DNA from: Candidatus Roizmanbacteria bacterium RIFCSPLOWO2_02_FULL_40_13
GTDB lineage: Bacteria; Patescibacteriota; Microgenomatia; UBA1406; GWC2-37-13
Assembly (NCBI GenBank): GCA_001789965.1
Contig: MGBA01000023.1
Span: 1-36,356 of the forward strand
Reading direction: 5' to 3'
DNA: 36,356 bases
The notes under the pieces were generated by a model. The model saw nothing but the letters and a program-made list of their open reading frames with translations, did no database searches and had not been told where the DNA came from. Position 1 is the stretch's first letter. Each line of letters starts with the position of its first letter. The position numbers were made by a program, and so were the translations under genes. Shown piece after piece: positions 4,827 through 10,461 of the stretch.

Positions 4827-5075
4827 TAATTATAAGAATGGAATAGAAATCTCTATTTGTCAATAGACTGCCGTAATGGTCTCTGGCTAATCTTTCTGTG
4901 GGAATCGTCAGTCCACAATCCTGCCTTTTGAACTGAACCTAATGCTTCCTTCTCCACGATGCAATAGAGTGATTTCAGAAAGAGACAACTTAGGAAGAAT
5001 CATTCGTTCGGAAGCCCCGACACGTTAGAAAATCGGCTCCCAGGGATAAATGATGTTAGAACTTTTTATTAAGAA
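4827..5075. other. Intergenic region holding repeat copy 1
   Basis: 249 bp between two minus-strand genes. The only clear structure is copy 1 of the 110-bp repeat (4885 to about 5000). Further right there is GC-rich sequence with short self-complementary stretches (around 5010-5043) but no gene-like signal. Confidence 0.5.
4885..5000 (+). repeat. 110-bp dispersed repeat, copy 1 (possible small RNA)
   Basis: It aligns over its whole length with 8517-8630. The core 4897-4936 matches 8529-8568 at 39 of 40 positions, including TGTGGGAATCGTCAG and CCTGCCTTTTGAACTGA. The core contains a short hairpin (TGTGG / CCACA). The flanking 60 nt to the right are also conserved but looser. Neither copy holds a long reading frame. 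Conservation of a non-coding block points to a small RNA or a mobile repeat; I cannot tell which. Confidence 0.6.
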
Positions 5076-5924
5076 CTACCTCAAAAGGATTACTCCTAAT
5101 GTTACCAAAACAGCAGCTATAAATTTACGTCCCAAATAATCTTTTTCTTTTAAAAATATTGCAGCTAGTATTACCGTGACTACAACTGAAGCCTGTCGTA
5201 TCGTCCCTACTTGAGAACTACTTCCTCCATTCGCTAAAGCAAGCATATAGGCTAACCCCTGAACTGTAGCAAAAATCCCAATTGGCAACATCCTTTTTAG
5301 AAAGCTTGCTTCAATTAATTGTTTCCATTGTTTAAATACTTTTGGATAAAAAAATAGAAGTATCAAAAAAATTAAAAAATTTACCGTCACATTATATGAA
5401 ATTGGATCAGTGCTTTTTACATTAAATCCATCTACGACTATTGCCAATCCAGAAAATACAGCTGTTGCAAATGCATACTCTACTCCTTTGCTAAATTTAA
5501 TCCCTTTTTTGAGTCTAGATACTAGAAAGATTGAAACTATGATAAAAACTGCTCCTAGTATTTTTTGGATATTAAAGACTTCATGTAAGAAAACAGTTGC
5601 AGCTAAGATAGTAACAATTACTCTTGAAGAAGATATTATCATGATTTCTGATGCCTCAATTAACTGTATCGCTTTAAAAAAGAACAAGCTTCCTCCTGCC
5701 CATAAAATTGCGGCTACAATCCAGTATGGAAACTTCTCAGAAAGTGTTGGAATCTGAGAACCAAGACCGATAGCAATGAGAAGATTTAAAATTGCAATAA
5801 TTAATTGGAAAACTATGGCGTAGGAATAAGGATTGCTTCTATCACCCTTCATTAAAACTCTTTGAAGAATTACAGCAAAAGAAACACCAAAAACGCTTAC
5901 GAGTGTTAACAGTAACCAATTCAT
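5076..5924 (-). CDS. EamA/DMT-superfamily membrane transporter
   Basis: 282 residues with about ten hydrophobic segments arranged as two homologous halves, each ending in the EamA-type pattern (FLHEVFNIQKILGAVFIIVSI in the first half, FLKEKDYLGRKFIAAVLVTLG in the second). This is the drug/metabolite transporter fold used for export of small metabolites or drugs across the inner membrane. The substrate cannot be read from the sequence. It sits downstream of an aminoglycoside-type phosphotransferase and an ABC-F gene on the same strand, which makes a protective or export role plausible. TATACT lies 6 nt before the ATG, so the start is probably leaderless. Confidence 0.85.
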   Translation of the reverse strand: MNWLLLTLVSVFGVSFAVILQRVLMKGDRSNPYSYAIVFQLIIAILNLLIAIGLGSQIPTLSEKFPYWIVAAILWAGGSLFFFKAIQLIEASEIMIISSSRVIVTILAATVFLHEVFNIQKILGAVFIIVSIFLVSRLKKGIKFSKGVEYAFATAVFSGLAIVVDGFNVKSTDPISYNVTVNFLIFLILLFFYPKVFKQWKQLIEASFLKRMLPIGIFATVQGLAYMLALANGGSSSQVGTIRQASVVVTVILAAIFLKEKDYLGRKFIAAVLVTLGVILLR

Positions 5925-5952: not shown

Positions 5953-6846
5953 CTATCTATCTTCTTCAAGTATTTCATTAATAACATGTCGGGCGTTAGA
6001 AGCGAGTTCCTTATTCGTATCCTTGTAGTATGGGAGTTGGATGAGAGCAATAGACAAAGCCCATCCGCGCCCACGTGCCCAGGTCTCCTTGTCATACTGG
6101 AGTTCCCTACGAAAAGTTTCTCGTGTTTCTGCAGATAAAAGATTCCATGCTGCAATCGAATCTACCGCAGGATCTCCAACGCCCAATCCTCCAAAATCAA
6201 GAATGGCACTGAGCTTACCATTAACGAGCAATATGTTCCCCGGTGAGAGATCGCCGTGAATCCAGACTGGTTTGCCGGAATACTTCGGAACTTTTAAAGC
6301 TTTCTCCCATATGTCGATTACTGCATCTGTATCAACTAGTCCATGTGATTCTTTAAGTGCCACGCGCATCTGATCATCTTGTACTTCCAATGGGGCTCCT
6401 CGTCGTGCAAGTGGTCCGTCTTTTAAATTTATTTGGTGCAATATATTAATAAATTTTGCTACGTCCTTTGCGAGCGAACTAGGATCGTTTAGATGGTCGA
6501 CAATCGGGTTTTCTCCTTTAAGCCACTTATAGATAGACCATGGATAAGGAAACTCTTTAGTCGGTTTCCCCTTTCCGAGTGGTATTGGGATGGCAATCGG
6601 AAATAACGGAGCAAGTTTTGGTAACCACTTCTGCTCTTTATCTATGGGTTTTGTTGCTCCCGGGCGTCGAGGTAAGCGCACAATCATCTCATCTCCCAGT
6701 CGGTATAGTGCGTTTTCTGTTCCACTAGAGGGAACTCTCCTGATTGGAAGATTTGTCCACTTCGGAAACTGTTCTTCCAATAAATGTTGGACGAGATTTT
6801 CATCGCTAAGTATTTCGTCTCTGTGCATTTTATCGTTTTGTTTCAT
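5953..6846 (-). CDS. Aminoglycoside phosphotransferase (APH)-family kinase
   Basis: 297 residues with the APH/choline-kinase fold: N-lobe with MIVRLPR and an AIPIP hinge region, catalytic loop HGDLSPGN at 197-204 (Asp199 as base, Asn204 as metal ligand), and DFG at 217-219 followed by GLGVGDPAVD, typical of the antibiotic-kinase branch. It transfers a phosphate from a nucleotide to a small hydroxylated molecule. The substrate could be an antibiotic or a metabolite, and the sequence alone does not decide. It sits between ABC-F and DMT genes of the same orientation. The start is set by an extended -10 6 nt upstream. Confidence 0.85.
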   Translation of the reverse strand: MKQNDKMHRDEILSDENLVQHLLEEQFPKWTNLPIRRVPSSGTENALYRLGDEMIVRLPRRPGATKPIDKEQKWLPKLAPLFPIAIPIPLGKGKPTKEFPYPWSIYKWLKGENPIVDHLNDPSSLAKDVAKFINILHQINLKDGPLARRGAPLEVQDDQMRVALKESHGLVDTDAVIDIWEKALKVPKYSGKPVWIHGDLSPGNILLVNGKLSAILDFGGLGVGDPAVDSIAAWNLLSAETRETFRRELQYDKETWARGRGWALSIALIQLPYYKDTNKELASNARHVINEILEEDR

Positions 6847-6883: not shown

Positions 6884-8359
6884 TTAGAGTCTATATTCTT
6901 TATCAATTCCTATATTTTTTAAGAAATACCTATCGTGTGAGGCAACGATGATGGCTCCTTGATATTCTCTTAGAGCCCTCTCGATTTGTTCTCTTGTGTC
7001 AATCTCCAGATGATTTGTCGGCTCGTCAAGAATTAAAAGATCATTGTCTTCCATAAGTAGTTTAATAAACTCCAGTTTTGTTCTTTGCCCACGGGAAAGC
7101 TCGTTCACTTTTCTCCTTAGGTCTTCAGGATTAATCTTCATGTACGCTCCGTAGCGAAAAGCTTCTGTCGTAGACGCTCCAAGCTTTTGTAAATAACTCA
7201 GCACTGTTTCGTCTGAGACGCTCTCGTTTAACTCTTGTGAAAAATATCCAACATTAATAGTGGCTCCGAGCTCGACCTTTCCAGAGTCTGGGACAATGTT
7301 TCCTGTCATGATTTTTAACAACGTACTCTTCCCGGAACCATTCTTTCCGGATACCCAAAGATGTTCTTTTCCTTGAACCGTAAATGACACATCTGTAAAG
7401 ACTTGAAAGCTGTCATACTTCTTAGTAATCTTTTTTGCCTCAATCATAAACTTTGTACTGCGAGCCTCGCCTTTGAAAGAAAAAGGATATATGACTCTTT
7501 CCTCAGGTTTTTCTAGTTCTATTGTTTTCGACAGACGTGTTTCTAAAGCTTTTTGCGATGCTACGGTCTTCTTAAGCGCTTTTGCCTGCAAAAAGTCTCG
7601 TCCCATCTTGTCACCATCTTTAGGCTTTCTCTTCTTGGTTAGATCACGAGCCTTATCTTGCTTATTCTTTATAGCGTTCTTAAACTTTGAAATCTCTTTT
7701 CTATTATTCTGGAACTGTTTCAGGGCGTTTTCTCGCGCGACCTCTTTTTGCGCTTTAAAAAAGGAGTAATTTCCTCCAAAGCGTGATAGCTCTCCCTTTT
7801 CTACCTCCACAATGCTGTCGACAGAATTATCTAAAAATGTTCTGTCGTGCGAAGTCAATAAAATCCCTCCCTTAAATCTTTTAATAAATGATTCTAACCA
7901 TAAGAGGCCTTCCAAATCGAGATTGTTTGTAGGCTCATCAAGTAGTAAGATGGTCGGGTCCTTTAGTAATATTGAAGCAAGATGTAGCTTGGTTCTTTCC
8001 CCGCCACTTAAAGAACGGGCTAGTCGCTGCTTTGATATATGACCTAATCCAACCTCTTCCAAGACAACGTCTAGTCTATATTCCTCCTCAAGAGCAAGTC
8101 CACCTTTTTTTAAATATTCTTGTATTGTTTCGTTTTGAAATTCGAAATGTTGCGGAAGATACCCGATAATTTCATTGACCGATTCTATAGTACCGCTATC
8201 AATCTCCATCTCTCTATTAATGATTCTTAATAGTGTAGTTTTTCCTGCCCCATTTCGGCCCACAAGACCAACTACCTCTGTATTTTCAATACTGAGGTTA
8301 ATATTGCGCAGAATTTTTTTGTCCTGGAATGTCTTAGAGACATTTTTTATTATCAACAT
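6884..8359 (-). CDS. ABC-F family ribosome-associated ATPase
   Basis: 491 residues with two ABC domains on one chain and no membrane segments. Domain 1 has Walker A GRNGAGKTT at 34-42, signature LSGGERTK near 117-124 and Walker B LLLDEPTNN near 138-146. A charged linker of about 80 residues (about 210-290, Lys-rich) is the P-site tether region. Domain 2 has GKNGSGKST at 338-346, LSRGQRTK, and LLILDEPTNHLE. The chain ends soon after the second H-loop, so there is no C-terminal extension. ABC-F proteins act on the ribosomal E site; some rescue stalled ribosomes and others give resistance to ribosome-targeting drugs. The attenuator-like leader immediately upstream favours the antibiotic-responsive kind. 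Confidence 0.92.
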   Translation of the reverse strand: MLIIKNVSKTFQDKKILRNINLSIENTEVVGLVGRNGAGKTTLLRIINREMEIDSGTIESVNEIIGYLPQHFEFQNETIQEYLKKGGLALEEEYRLDVVLEEVGLGHISKQRLARSLSGGERTKLHLASILLKDPTILLLDEPTNNLDLEGLLWLESFIKRFKGGILLTSHDRTFLDNSVDSIVEVEKGELSRFGGNYSFFKAQKEVARENALKQFQNNRKEISKFKNAIKNKQDKARDLTKKRKPKDGDKMGRDFLQAKALKKTVASQKALETRLSKTIELEKPEERVIYPFSFKGEARSTKFMIEAKKITKKYDSFQVFTDVSFTVQGKEHLWVSGKNGSGKSTLLKIMTGNIVPDSGKVELGATINVGYFSQELNESVSDETVLSYLQKLGASTTEAFRYGAYMKINPEDLRRKVNELSRGQRTKLEFIKLLMEDNDLLILDEPTNHLEIDTREQIERALREYQGAIIVASHDRYFLKNIGIDKEYRL

Positions 8360-8363
8360 AGGC

Positions 8364-8393
8364 GTAAAAAAAACCAGCCTTCTCTGGCTGGTT
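8364..8393 (-). terminator. Intrinsic terminator in the ABC-F leader
   Basis: Minus strand: AACCAGCC (8393-8386), loop AGAGAA, GGCTGGTT (8379-8372), with a run of T from 8373 to 8366. The perfect 8-bp stem plus T run ends only about 6 nt before the ABC-F ATG, so it can only act as a leader attenuator for that gene. Confidence 0.85.
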
Positions 8394-8413
8394 ATAAATT
8401 GTAGACACGAAAA

Positions 8414-8457
8414 TAACTAACAAATAACCCGCCGAGGGGCTTAAAAATTGTTAGTTA
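8414..8457 (-). promoter_or_regulatory. Anti-antiterminator stem of the ABC-F leader
   Basis: Arms 8457-8448 and 8423-8414 form a perfect 10-bp stem (TAACTAACAA with TTGTTAGTTA) closing an inner CCC/GGG helix. The inner 3' strand GGCGGGTT (minus strand, plus 8433-8426) can instead pair at 7 of 8 positions with AACCAGCC, the 5' arm of the terminator. That gives the two mutually exclusive folds expected of an attenuator. Confidence 0.7.
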
Positions 8458-8465
8458 ATCTTCAT
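8451..8465 (-). CDS. Leader peptide MKIN (upstream ORF of the ABC-F attenuator)
   Basis: ATG AAG ATT AAC TAA, four codons. The ATG is 7 nt after an extended -10, the same spacing as the leaderless genes here. Its last sense codon and stop lie within the 5' arm of the 10-bp stem, so a ribosome on the uORF would block that stem. Very short uORFs of this kind control known antibiotic-resistance ABC-F genes through drug-stalled ribosomes; the role here is inferred. Confidence 0.6.
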   Translation of the reverse strand: MKIN

Positions 8466-8472
8466 TAAGGTT

Positions 8473-8481
8473 ATTATATCA
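8473..8481 (-). promoter_or_regulatory. Extended -10 promoter of the ABC-F leader transcript
   Basis: TGATATAAT (8481-8473) on the minus strand, 7 nt before the MKIN start codon. It diverges from TGCTATAAT on the plus strand at 8498-8506. Confidence 0.75.
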
Positions 8482-8514: not shown

Positions 8515-8568
8515 ATGGCTAATTTGAGTGTGGGAATCGTCAGCCCACAATCCTGCCTTTTGAACTGA
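8515..8568 (+). pseudogene. Truncated duplicate of the ychF 5' end
   Basis: The first 27 nt (8515-8541) match the start of ychF (9403-9429) at 25 positions, and both differences are silent third-position changes (MANLSVGIV in both). The frame then leaves ychF, continues as SPQSCLLN and stops at 8568. With its own promoter this is an intact 17-codon reading frame, but it is best read as a remnant of ychF or as the head of the 110-bp repeat. Confidence 0.65.
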
Positions 8569-8630
8569 GCATAATACTCCCTCCTCCGAGGTATGCTAGA
8601 GTCATTTTAGAAAGAGATTCGTTGGGTAAA
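8517..8630 (+). repeat. 110-bp dispersed repeat, copy 2 (possible small RNA)
   Basis: Partner of 4885-5000; the core 8529-8568 is 39/40 identical to copy 1. In this copy the hairpin TGTGGG / CCCACA is complete. The left end coincides with the ychF-like head and a plus-strand extended -10, so transcription rightward is likely. It lies between the ABC-F leader and the stop of the next minus-strand gene. Confidence 0.6.
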
Positions 8631-8646: not shown

Positions 8647-9339
8647 CTATTGATCAGGTTGATCAATAGCCCTTTCAATCTCTTCTCGTTCATAGTGAAC
8701 TCTGAAGAAATGGTGTAATTCCATCATGGCGGTAGTCATAGCATTGAATTCTTCGCCGGGGTTTTCCTCACGAAATTCCCTCACAATTTTTGCGAGAGCA
8801 GGTTCATCTCGGACAAACGACCTGAGCCGTTCTTCTACTCGAGTTTTTTCCGCTTCATTAAAAAAGTCAATTGAGGATTCACTTACAGTCGATAGGTCTC
8901 CTTTATCAAAAATATTAATAACTTCTTGCACAGTCAGCCCTTCTTTTTTTGCTATTTCAGCGAATGTAAACATCGTATCATCACTCACAGCTCTGTCACG
9001 ATCAAACACCTGAGCATCAACTTCGGTTATTACTGGAATTTGAGTATTTTTGCGTCGTGCTTCCTCTCTGAGTGCGCGATAAAATAGAACCTCGCCTATT
9101 TGGTATGTCATAACATGTACATCTCCAAAGGTCTGTTGGAGTCTTAGCATATCAACTGCCATGAAGCCTGAGATTATTGGATTTTCTTTTTTTATCAGTG
9201 CCCTTTCTTTATCTAACTTATCGTTTAGATCACCACCCGTCAAAATATCTTGAAACGCAAATTCTACTGCCTCTTCACTGAGTGGAATGAGAGTTGGATT
9301 AGGTTGTTGTGGTTCTTTTCTAGGATTCTCAGTAGCCAT
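8647..9339 (-). CDS. Hypothetical protein, 230 aa, helical
   Basis: A soluble, acidic, mostly helical protein. The start at 9339 (MATENPRKEP) is preferred over an upstream in-frame start because TATAAT lies exactly 7 nt before it. The central block (NPIISGFMAVDMLRLQQTFG, then HVMTYQIGEVLFYRALREEA) looks like a conserved core. The segment FAEIAKKEGLTVQEVINIF could be a helix-turn-helix-like or UBA-like helical pair. No enzyme motif is seen and I do not recognise the family. It is divergent from ychF, with a 63-bp shared promoter region. Confidence 0.75.
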   Translation of the reverse strand: MATENPRKEPQQPNPTLIPLSEEAVEFAFQDILTGGDLNDKLDKERALIKKENPIISGFMAVDMLRLQQTFGDVHVMTYQIGEVLFYRALREEARRKNTQIPVITEVDAQVFDRDRAVSDDTMFTFAEIAKKEGLTVQEVINIFDKGDLSTVSESSIDFFNEAEKTRVEERLRSFVRDEPALAKIVREFREENPGEEFNAMTTAMMELHHFFRVHYEREEIERAIDQPDQ

Positions 9340-9346
9340 AGGGTTA

Positions 9347-9352
9347 ATTATA
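9347..9352 (-). promoter_or_regulatory. -10 box of the 230-aa gene
   Basis: TATAAT on the minus strand, 7 nt (TAACCCT) before ATG 9339. It decides the start codon. Confidence 0.7.
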
Positions 9353-9388
9353 CTATCGTAACAGGCTAAACTCAATTTATAAGATAAC

Positions 9389-9402: not shown

Positions 9403-10461
9403 ATGGCTAATTTGAGTGTGGGAATTGTGGGACTTCCGAATGTTGGGAAATCTACATTGTTTAACGCTCTTCTTAAGAAACAGGTTGCACTTGAGGCAAA
9501 CTATCCGTTTGCGACGATTGAACCAAACGTCGGAGTTATTGAAGTACCTGATGCACGGCTTCCGGTCCTCGCAGAGATTGTAAAAACCCAGAAAATCGTA
9601 CCGGCGATCGTTGAGTTCTATGATATTGCAGGACTGGTAAAAGGCGCTTCAAAAGGAGAAGGCCTCGGCAATAAATTCCTCTCTCATATCCGTGAGGTTG
9701 CGGCGATAATTCATGTTGTCCGGCTTTTTGAGGATAAAAATGTATCACATATTTCCGACCAGATTAATCCTGCGCAAGACCTGCAGATTATTGAAGAGGA
9801 ACTTATGTTTGCGGATCTGGGGACCTTAGACAAGCAAAAAGAACCTCGCAACAATGCCTCCAAAGAAGAAACTGCCATGTATCAGCTGGTCCAAAGAGTT
9901 AAGACTAGACTCAACGAAGGTGTTCCCGTCCGCAATCAAGGACTGTCATCTGAGGATTTAGTGATGATCAGACAACTCAATCTTTTGACCATAAAACCTG
10001 TTATCTATTGCGTAAACTGCTCGCTTGAACAGATTGAGAACGCGGAGGAAACAGAACGACAGGTCCGCGTCATTCTGGGGAGTTTAAACGACACCAGAAT
10101 CGATTCTGGACAAGCCAGAATGACTGAAAATTTCATGCTTTTTAATCCTCTTGTGGAAACGACCTTAGATGTCATGATCAAGAAGGCATATGAAACCCTA
10201 AATCTTATTTCATTTCTCACCGGAGGCGAAAAAGAAGTACGGGCTTGGACTATCACAAAAGGCACTCTCGCTCCCCAAGCTGCAGGAGTTATTCATACTG
10301 ATTTTGAGAAGAAATTTATAAAAGCAGACATCGTTACCTACGAAGACTTCAAACAAGCTCCGGGTTGGTTGAAAGCGCGAGAGTCAGGACTGGTGCAGAT
10401 AGTTGGAAAAGATTATGAAATGAGAGAAGGCGATATCGTCGAATTCAAAATAGGTGCGTAA
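9403..10461 (+). CDS. ychF: Obg-like ribosome-binding ATPase/GTPase YchF
   Basis: 352 residues, close to the usual 363. P-loop GLPNVGKST at 10-18, switch region YPFATIEPNVG, DIAGLVKGAS, and a C-terminal TGS domain starting near EVRAWTITKGTLAPQAAGVIHTDFEKKF. YchF binds the ribosome and hydrolyses ATP in preference to GTP. The segment usually reading like CAAVEADIAELDDEER before the final helix is missing. In its place residues about 222-241 (ILGSLNDTRIDSGQARMT) are encoded by a palindromic repeat (10069-10124) that is shared with the GIY-YIG element. KPxxY to LNL is about 9 residues shorter than in E. coli by my manual count. The 3' end is duplicated just downstream. Probably still functional, since the frame and all nucleotide-binding motifs are intact. 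Confidence 0.95.
   Translation: MANLSVGIVGLPNVGKSTLFNALLKKQVALEANYPFATIEPNVGVIEVPDARLPVLAEIVKTQKIVPAIVEFYDIAGLVKGASKGEGLGNKFLSHIREVAAIIHVVRLFEDKNVSHISDQINPAQDLQIIEEELMFADLGTLDKQKEPRNNASKEETAMYQLVQRVKTRLNEGVPVRNQGLSSEDLVMIRQLNLLTIKPVIYCVNCSLEQIENAEETERQVRVILGSLNDTRIDSGQARMTENFMLFNPLVETTLDVMIKKAYETLNLISFLTGGEKEVRAWTITKGTLAPQAAGVIHTDFEKKFIKADIVTYEDFKQAPGWLKARESGLVQIVGKDYEMREGDIVEFKIGA
10069..10124. repeat. ORF-less palindromic element inside ychF
   Basis: Ends are GTCATTCTGG (10069-10078) and CCAGAATGAC (10115-10124), a perfect 10-bp inverted pair. Inside are two adjacent hairpins: 10071-10100, and 10103-10121 (ATTCTGG, loop, CCAGAAT). The left part 10069-10101 matches 21130-21162 at 30/33, and the right part 10102-10126 matches 21443-21467 at 25/25. 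Those two blocks frame the GIY-YIG gene, so this looks like the same unit without the gene, read through in frame. Confidence 0.8.

Follow-up and report, generated by a model that had tools for sequence, protein, structure and literature searches.

A candidate leaderless transcription attenuator upstream of an ABC-F gene in a Roizmanbacteria genome

An ABC-F gene in a genome with leaderless initiation

The stretch of DNA analyzed, hereafter the window, comprises 36,356 nt of contig MGBA01000023.1 from Candidatus Roizmanbacteria bacterium RIFCSPLOWO2_02_FULL_40_13. It encodes, on the minus strand, a 491-aa ABC-F ATPase (6884-8359) that belongs by sequence to the ribosomal-protection ABC-F group (NCBIfam NF000355, 444.8 bits for a cut-off of 380) and scores under the cut-offs of the named Vga, Msr, Lsa, Sal, CplR, and OptrA models. 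Its best match among solved structures was ExpZ 8buu, which we take to be the structure of VmlR2. Its downstream neighbors, two more minus-strand genes, encode an APH-family phosphotransferase with an aminoglycoside/macrolide kinase fold (5953-6846; PF01636, 126.7 bits) and an EamA-family transporter (5076-5924; PF00892, 88.6 bits). Each has its own leaderless promoter, with TGATATAAT located 6 nt before the kinase ATG and the -10 of the transporter gene also 6 nt before its ATG. A single operon of the ABC-F, kinase, and transporter genes was therefore rejected as the sole reading of the locus. Given the position of these -10 boxes, the ABC-F gene stands apart from its neighbors in having a leader. 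Sequence matching the 5' end of ychF is directly repeated at 4883-4985, 8515-8617, and 9403-9429 (plus strand). These repeats flank the EamA, APH, and ABC-F genes together with an orphan ORF (8647-9375), an arrangement resembling cassette insertion at the start of ychF; a portion of the repeat is also present elsewhere in G027 and G012.

Initiation signals were analyzed over ~904 kb, about 98% of the genome. A -10 element was located 5-9 nt before the start in 202 of 679 ATG ORFs, versus 24 in a control window, whereas Shine-Dalgarno-like motifs were not enriched (42 versus 48 in the control). Exact TATAAT motifs peaked 6 nt before start codons, and this peak was shared with other CPR-type loci and absent from loci of other bacteria. 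With a strong leaderless signal and no Shine-Dalgarno signal, a leaderless uORF is thus the local norm. CPR bacteria are not known to have ribosomal protein L30. The CPR-type origin suggested by a sequence-only reading of the window, made before this analysis, fits a genome of 0.93 Mb in which L30 is absent while being present in 13 of 14 control genomes.

Leader elements and switching computed with a ribosome footprint

The leader of the ABC-F gene is ~106 nt long and lies on the minus strand. An extended -10 (TGATATAAT, 8481-8473) places the predicted transcription start at, or within ~1-2 nt of, the ATG of a four-codon uORF, MKIN (ATGAAGATTAACTAA; ATG AAG ATT AAC TAA; 8465-8451), at the 5' end of the leader. 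This short uORF, situated between promoter and ABC-F gene as in vmlR-type leaders, begins 7 nt downstream of the -10, a spacing too short for a ribosome-binding site or a 5' untranslated region. The promoter, the spacing, and the uORF were all confirmed as the sequence-only reading had described them. Its leaderless start, predicted from the -10 spacing, is supported by this distance and by genome-wide practice. A Shine-Dalgarno-led uORF of the vmlR type was not found here, as there is no 5' untranslated region and the genome has no Shine-Dalgarno enrichment. A search of Rfam at gathering thresholds returned zero matches in the window.

The first stem, acting as a predicted anti-antiterminator, is a perfect 10-bp helix between TAACTAACAA (8457-8448) and TTGTTAGTTA (8423-8414) that includes the end of the uORF. 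It was present as previously claimed and can run longer, across the entire uORF including the start codon, by pairing 8465-8449 with 8422-8407 around one bulge. Perfect stems of at least 10 bp arose in 3 of 1000 shuffles. The 3' arm of this stem is overlapped by the 5' strand of the antiterminator (CTCGGCGGGTTATTTGT, 8436-8420), whose partner strand (ACAATTTATAACCAGCCAGAG, 8402-8382) includes the 5' arm of the terminator. Together these strands form a helix of ~16 pairs (duplex, -14.5 kcal/mol), of which the alternative pairing noted in the sequence-only reading, GGCGGGTT (8433-8426) with AACCAGCC (8393-8386) at 7 of 8 positions, is a part.

An intrinsic terminator (8393-8366) with an 8-bp stem, a 6-nt loop, and a T-run ends 6 nt 5' of the ABC-F start. 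Its sequence is AACCAGCC-AGAGAA-GGCTGGTT (8393-8372), followed by Ts to 8366, and the hairpin has a computed energy of -12.9 kcal/mol. An 8-bp terminator just before the ABC-F start had thus been described correctly, with one correction to its T8: two of the Ts are inside the stem and six follow it. Upon folding of the leader, the first stem and the terminator both formed, and the fold was more stable than those of shuffled sequences (z = -4.46; 0 of 200 shuffles equally stable). The terminator is separated from the ABC-F ATG by 6 nt that contain no promoter, and the gene must therefore be transcribed by read-through. There is also no ribosome-binding site before this ATG, so translation from the read-through RNA requires Shine-Dalgarno-free initiation.

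Ensemble folding was performed with increasing lengths of the 5' end of the leader hidden, mimicking cover by a ribosome. Following the toeprint distance reported for the vmlR uORF (PMC9226507), the edge of the footprint was placed 16 nt from the P-site codon, measured from its first base. With 0-9 nt hidden, the first stem and the terminator persisted; with 15-25 nt hidden, the antiterminator displaced the terminator; and with ~30 or more nt hidden, the terminator re-formed. The computed probability of the terminator was 0.96 without a ribosome and 0.18, 0.19, 0.19, and 0.28 with P-site codons 1, 2, 3, and 4, respectively. It rose to 0.68 with the P site at the stop codon and was at least 0.88 from codon 6 onward. 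Because the terminator is lost at codons 1 to 4 and returns beyond them, the opening interval corresponds to the MKIN uORF. The masking computation thereby reproduced the mechanism proposed earlier, in which the first stem is opened by a ribosome on MKIN, leaving the antiterminator free to form and RNA polymerase able to reach the ABC-F gene. As in vmlR-type leaders, the anti-antiterminator includes the uORF, antiterminator and terminator are mutually exclusive in the masked ensembles, and the intrinsic terminator lies 5' of the gene.

As a control, the stretch separating the uORF from the terminator was shuffled 1500 times, and the same on/off masking pattern appeared in four of the shuffles. 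When the 3' arm of the terminator was kept wholly unpaired, the terminated state remained favored over the antiterminated one by at least 0.7 kcal/mol, indicating that opening needs the antiterminator to form first and additional pairing of the terminator 3' arm. A similar dependence on the antiterminator forming first applies to other attenuators.

Recurrence in relatives and elsewhere in the genome

The ABC-F gene is sporadic: among 373 genomes in the class, 19 contained a match at 1e-60. The window protein grouped in a clade of 21 when a tree was built for 114 ABC-F proteins of the phylum. No further clade members came from order-wide searches centered on the window genome, G055, G275, and G078, and when the named genome collection was scanned with the ABC-F protein, general ABC-F matches dominated and no close relative was found. 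Two loci of the same clade, L012 and L054, have leaders with an extended -10, 6-7 nt of spacing, an ATG uORF, an alternative pairing, and a terminator. Their uORFs are MTDLTDTYRPKA in L012 and MKRFGYLDIYDRRPFMPAALLEGRAIMLAFLHKNL in L054, the latter with 35 codons beginning MKRFGY. The L012 layout equals that of the window leader, the uORF pairing with the stretch after the antiterminator strand; the ABC-F frame of L012 is broken in the assembly. The window leader and those of L012 and L054 were the only ones returned by a blind architecture scan of 495 kb of CPR loci. Arrest at a macrolide +X+ motif was considered for L012 (RPK) and L054 and rejected, as their open intervals are not at their basic-residue motifs.

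Other relatives differed. The ABC-F gene of L043, which also has an APH-family kinase neighbor, is preceded by a leaderless GTG uORF (MNS) and only a weak hairpin. The nearest ABC-F relatives, in L039, L010, and L011 (44-48% identity) and L040 (40%), have no leader, and in L039 a plain promoter adjoins the ABC-F start. The leader is absent from the closest relatives and has thus been gained or lost repeatedly. As judged from sequence, the support from relatives is a recurrence of architecture and not of aligned compensatory changes, since the relatives are too divergent. An apparent MKINV uORF in L120 was rejected because of its position upstream of the promoter.

Some leaders showed other arrangements. 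In L039, a terminator-like hairpin (ATATCACACCCCAAGGGTGTGATAT) lies upstream of the ABC-F gene, and the 5' arm of this hairpin is duplicated a short distance further upstream; the gene seems to have its own leaderless promoter. A more distantly related ABC-F clade within the phylum (L111, L114, L116, L118, L122, L137, and L139) often shows the order promoter, close hairpin with T-run, and ABC-F start. These leaders are without a uORF and are possibly another kind of attenuator.

A strict architecture scan of the ~904 kb of the same genome gave four matches, two of which, the window leader and a leader upstream of a racemase gene, had both an extended -10 and a clear switch. The racemase leader (L276, ~3549-3420, minus strand; G000:C1, ~63.5 kb) carries the uORF MSNTITSQGWSHHYSPSRADGICMNR; its terminator disappears while the P site is at codons 1-13 and re-forms from codon 14 on, and His and Trp codons are present within this open interval. 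Leaderless leaders containing His or Trp codons, with terminators, also precede amino-acid racemase genes in three relatives (L286, L290, and L291). The racemase leader and its recurrence support leaderless attenuation as a working device of the lineage.

Also observed was L258 8395-8490, where a promoter, a leaderless uORF (MIFSPQRKIHT), and a hairpin with a T-run precede a ribosomal protein L3-like gene; masking gave no clear switch for this leader.

Proposed mechanism and relation to known attenuators

We propose that the ABC-F leader is a ribosome-mediated transcription attenuator, open while a ribosome is held on MKIN, with a drug as the likeliest cause, and we consider this interpretation probable. 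Transcription would start at the ATG of the uORF. With no ribosome present, or after a ribosome has finished and gone, the uORF would pair downstream in the first stem and block the antiterminator, and in the cell RNA polymerase would then halt at the terminator, immediately ahead of the ABC-F gene. A ribosome loaded on the 5' ATG and held on any of the four codons would instead mask the first stem's 5' arm. The segment released in this way could then be first to pair with the 5' arm of the terminator, and polymerase would continue into the ABC-F gene. The likeliest hold is an antibiotic halting ribosomes at or just after initiation, of the kind that such ABC-F proteins counter. Drugs holding ribosomes right after initiation would suit MKIN because the uORF is so short. 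The ABC-F protein is thus probably made only when a drug blocks ribosomes.

The hold might have another cause, such as a shortage of charged tRNA or generally slow translation, with any slow codon of MKIN (Lys, Ile, or Asn) detaining the ribosome. The open interval treats all four codons alike, so that any slow step would suffice, and the racemase leader of the same genome, with its His and Trp codons, provides a parallel. We nevertheless regard this sensing of amino-acid supply or translation rate as unlikely, since no single amino acid predominates in MKIN, the downstream gene encodes a ribosome-protection ATPase rather than an amino-acid enzyme, and the ABC-F attenuators described so far are drug-responsive (PMC9226507, PMC10314930). 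Less probable still is a plain terminator with fixed partial read-through, giving constitutive low expression, in which the alternative pairing would be due to chance. Single pairings at 7 of 8 positions are not rare, and hiding the 5' end (masks of 15-24 nt) broke the terminator in 24 of the 1500 shuffles, but the full on/off pattern was rare, its agreement with the uORF extends to each codon, and two other ABC-F genes are preceded by similar layouts. It is very improbable that the terminator, although downstream of a co-directional ORF (8647-9375), serves that upstream gene while an unrecognised promoter downstream of it drives the ABC-F gene, because the T-run is only 6 nt from the ABC-F ATG, the bases upstream are a T-tract rather than a -10, and the extended -10 and uORF sit between the upstream ORF and the terminator.

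The drug-responsive attenuator proposed here most resembles the vmlR leader of Bacillus subtilis (PMC9226507). Both have a very short uORF (MIN in vmlR) inside an anti-antiterminator stem, a mutually exclusive antiterminator and intrinsic terminator, and a downstream ABC-F ribosome-protection gene, and both open when a ribosome is held at the uORF start, in the window leader by computation. The vmlR leader, however, is 219 nt long; its uORF and its gene have Shine-Dalgarno sites, and it contains a pause hairpin as well as another hairpin that occludes the ribosome-binding site of the gene (PMC9226507). The window leader, unlike vmlR, has its uORF at the 5' end of ~106 nt and contains no Shine-Dalgarno sites. 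It is thus not a plain member of the vmlR type, because a Shine-Dalgarno-led uORF is absent, though it would work like the vmlR attenuator.

Published uORFs of ARE-ABCF attenuators include MIN (VmlR), MK[L/Q] (VmlR2), MR[I/M] (CplR), and MAGN (LsaA) (PMC9226507, PMC10201436). The 3-4-codon uORFs before cplR, vmlR2, and lsaA are similar to MKIN in size and make-up, but their hosts are Gram-positive bacteria with ribosome-binding sites, and cplR is also subject to translational attenuation (PMC10201436). The msrDL/msrD and mefAL systems likewise combine a uORF and a ribosome hold with read-through of an intrinsic terminator upstream of an ABC-F gene. Their peptides, however, are longer (MYLIFM and MTASMRLR) and arrest in the exit tunnel in a drug-specific manner, and their ribosome-binding site is strong (PMC10314930).

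Leader peptides beginning at the RNA 5' end, as predicted for MKIN, are found in trpL of Sinorhizobium meliloti (PMC7298713) and the ilvBNC leader of Corynebacterium glutamicum (PMC11857589). Those leaders respond to the supply of amino acids, and the genes under their control serve biosynthesis rather than ribosome protection (PMC7298713, PMC11857589). Codons matching an amino acid made by the operon, as in trpL and ilvBNC, were not found in MKIN, which precedes an ABC-F ATPase gene. The components, ABC-F attenuators and leaderless leader peptides, are already known, and it is their combination that is new. A literature search, with most subscription journals outside its scope, returned no paper linking CPR bacteria to attenuators, or leaderless uORFs to ABC-F genes.

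ABC-F attenuators were previously known from Gram-positive bacteria with ribosome-binding sites. In the window leader, leaderless initiation becomes a component of the sensor, and the leader is a small RNA suited to in vitro testing. The architecture search recipe yielded a further leaderless attenuator in the same genome. Tentatively, and at somewhat less than even odds, compact attenuators with a sensor uORF at the first RNA base may be a general class in CPR bacteria, where no Shine-Dalgarno signal was seen here, serving both the response to ribosome-targeting drugs (ABC-F) and amino-acid genes (racemases, with His/Trp leaders). Loading of a ribosome at the bare 5' end would have to precede closure of the hairpin, and such a switch would therefore also gauge free initiating ribosomes. 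The window leader suggests that uncultivated CPR bacteria are exposed to drugs acting on the ribosome and control a defense against them.
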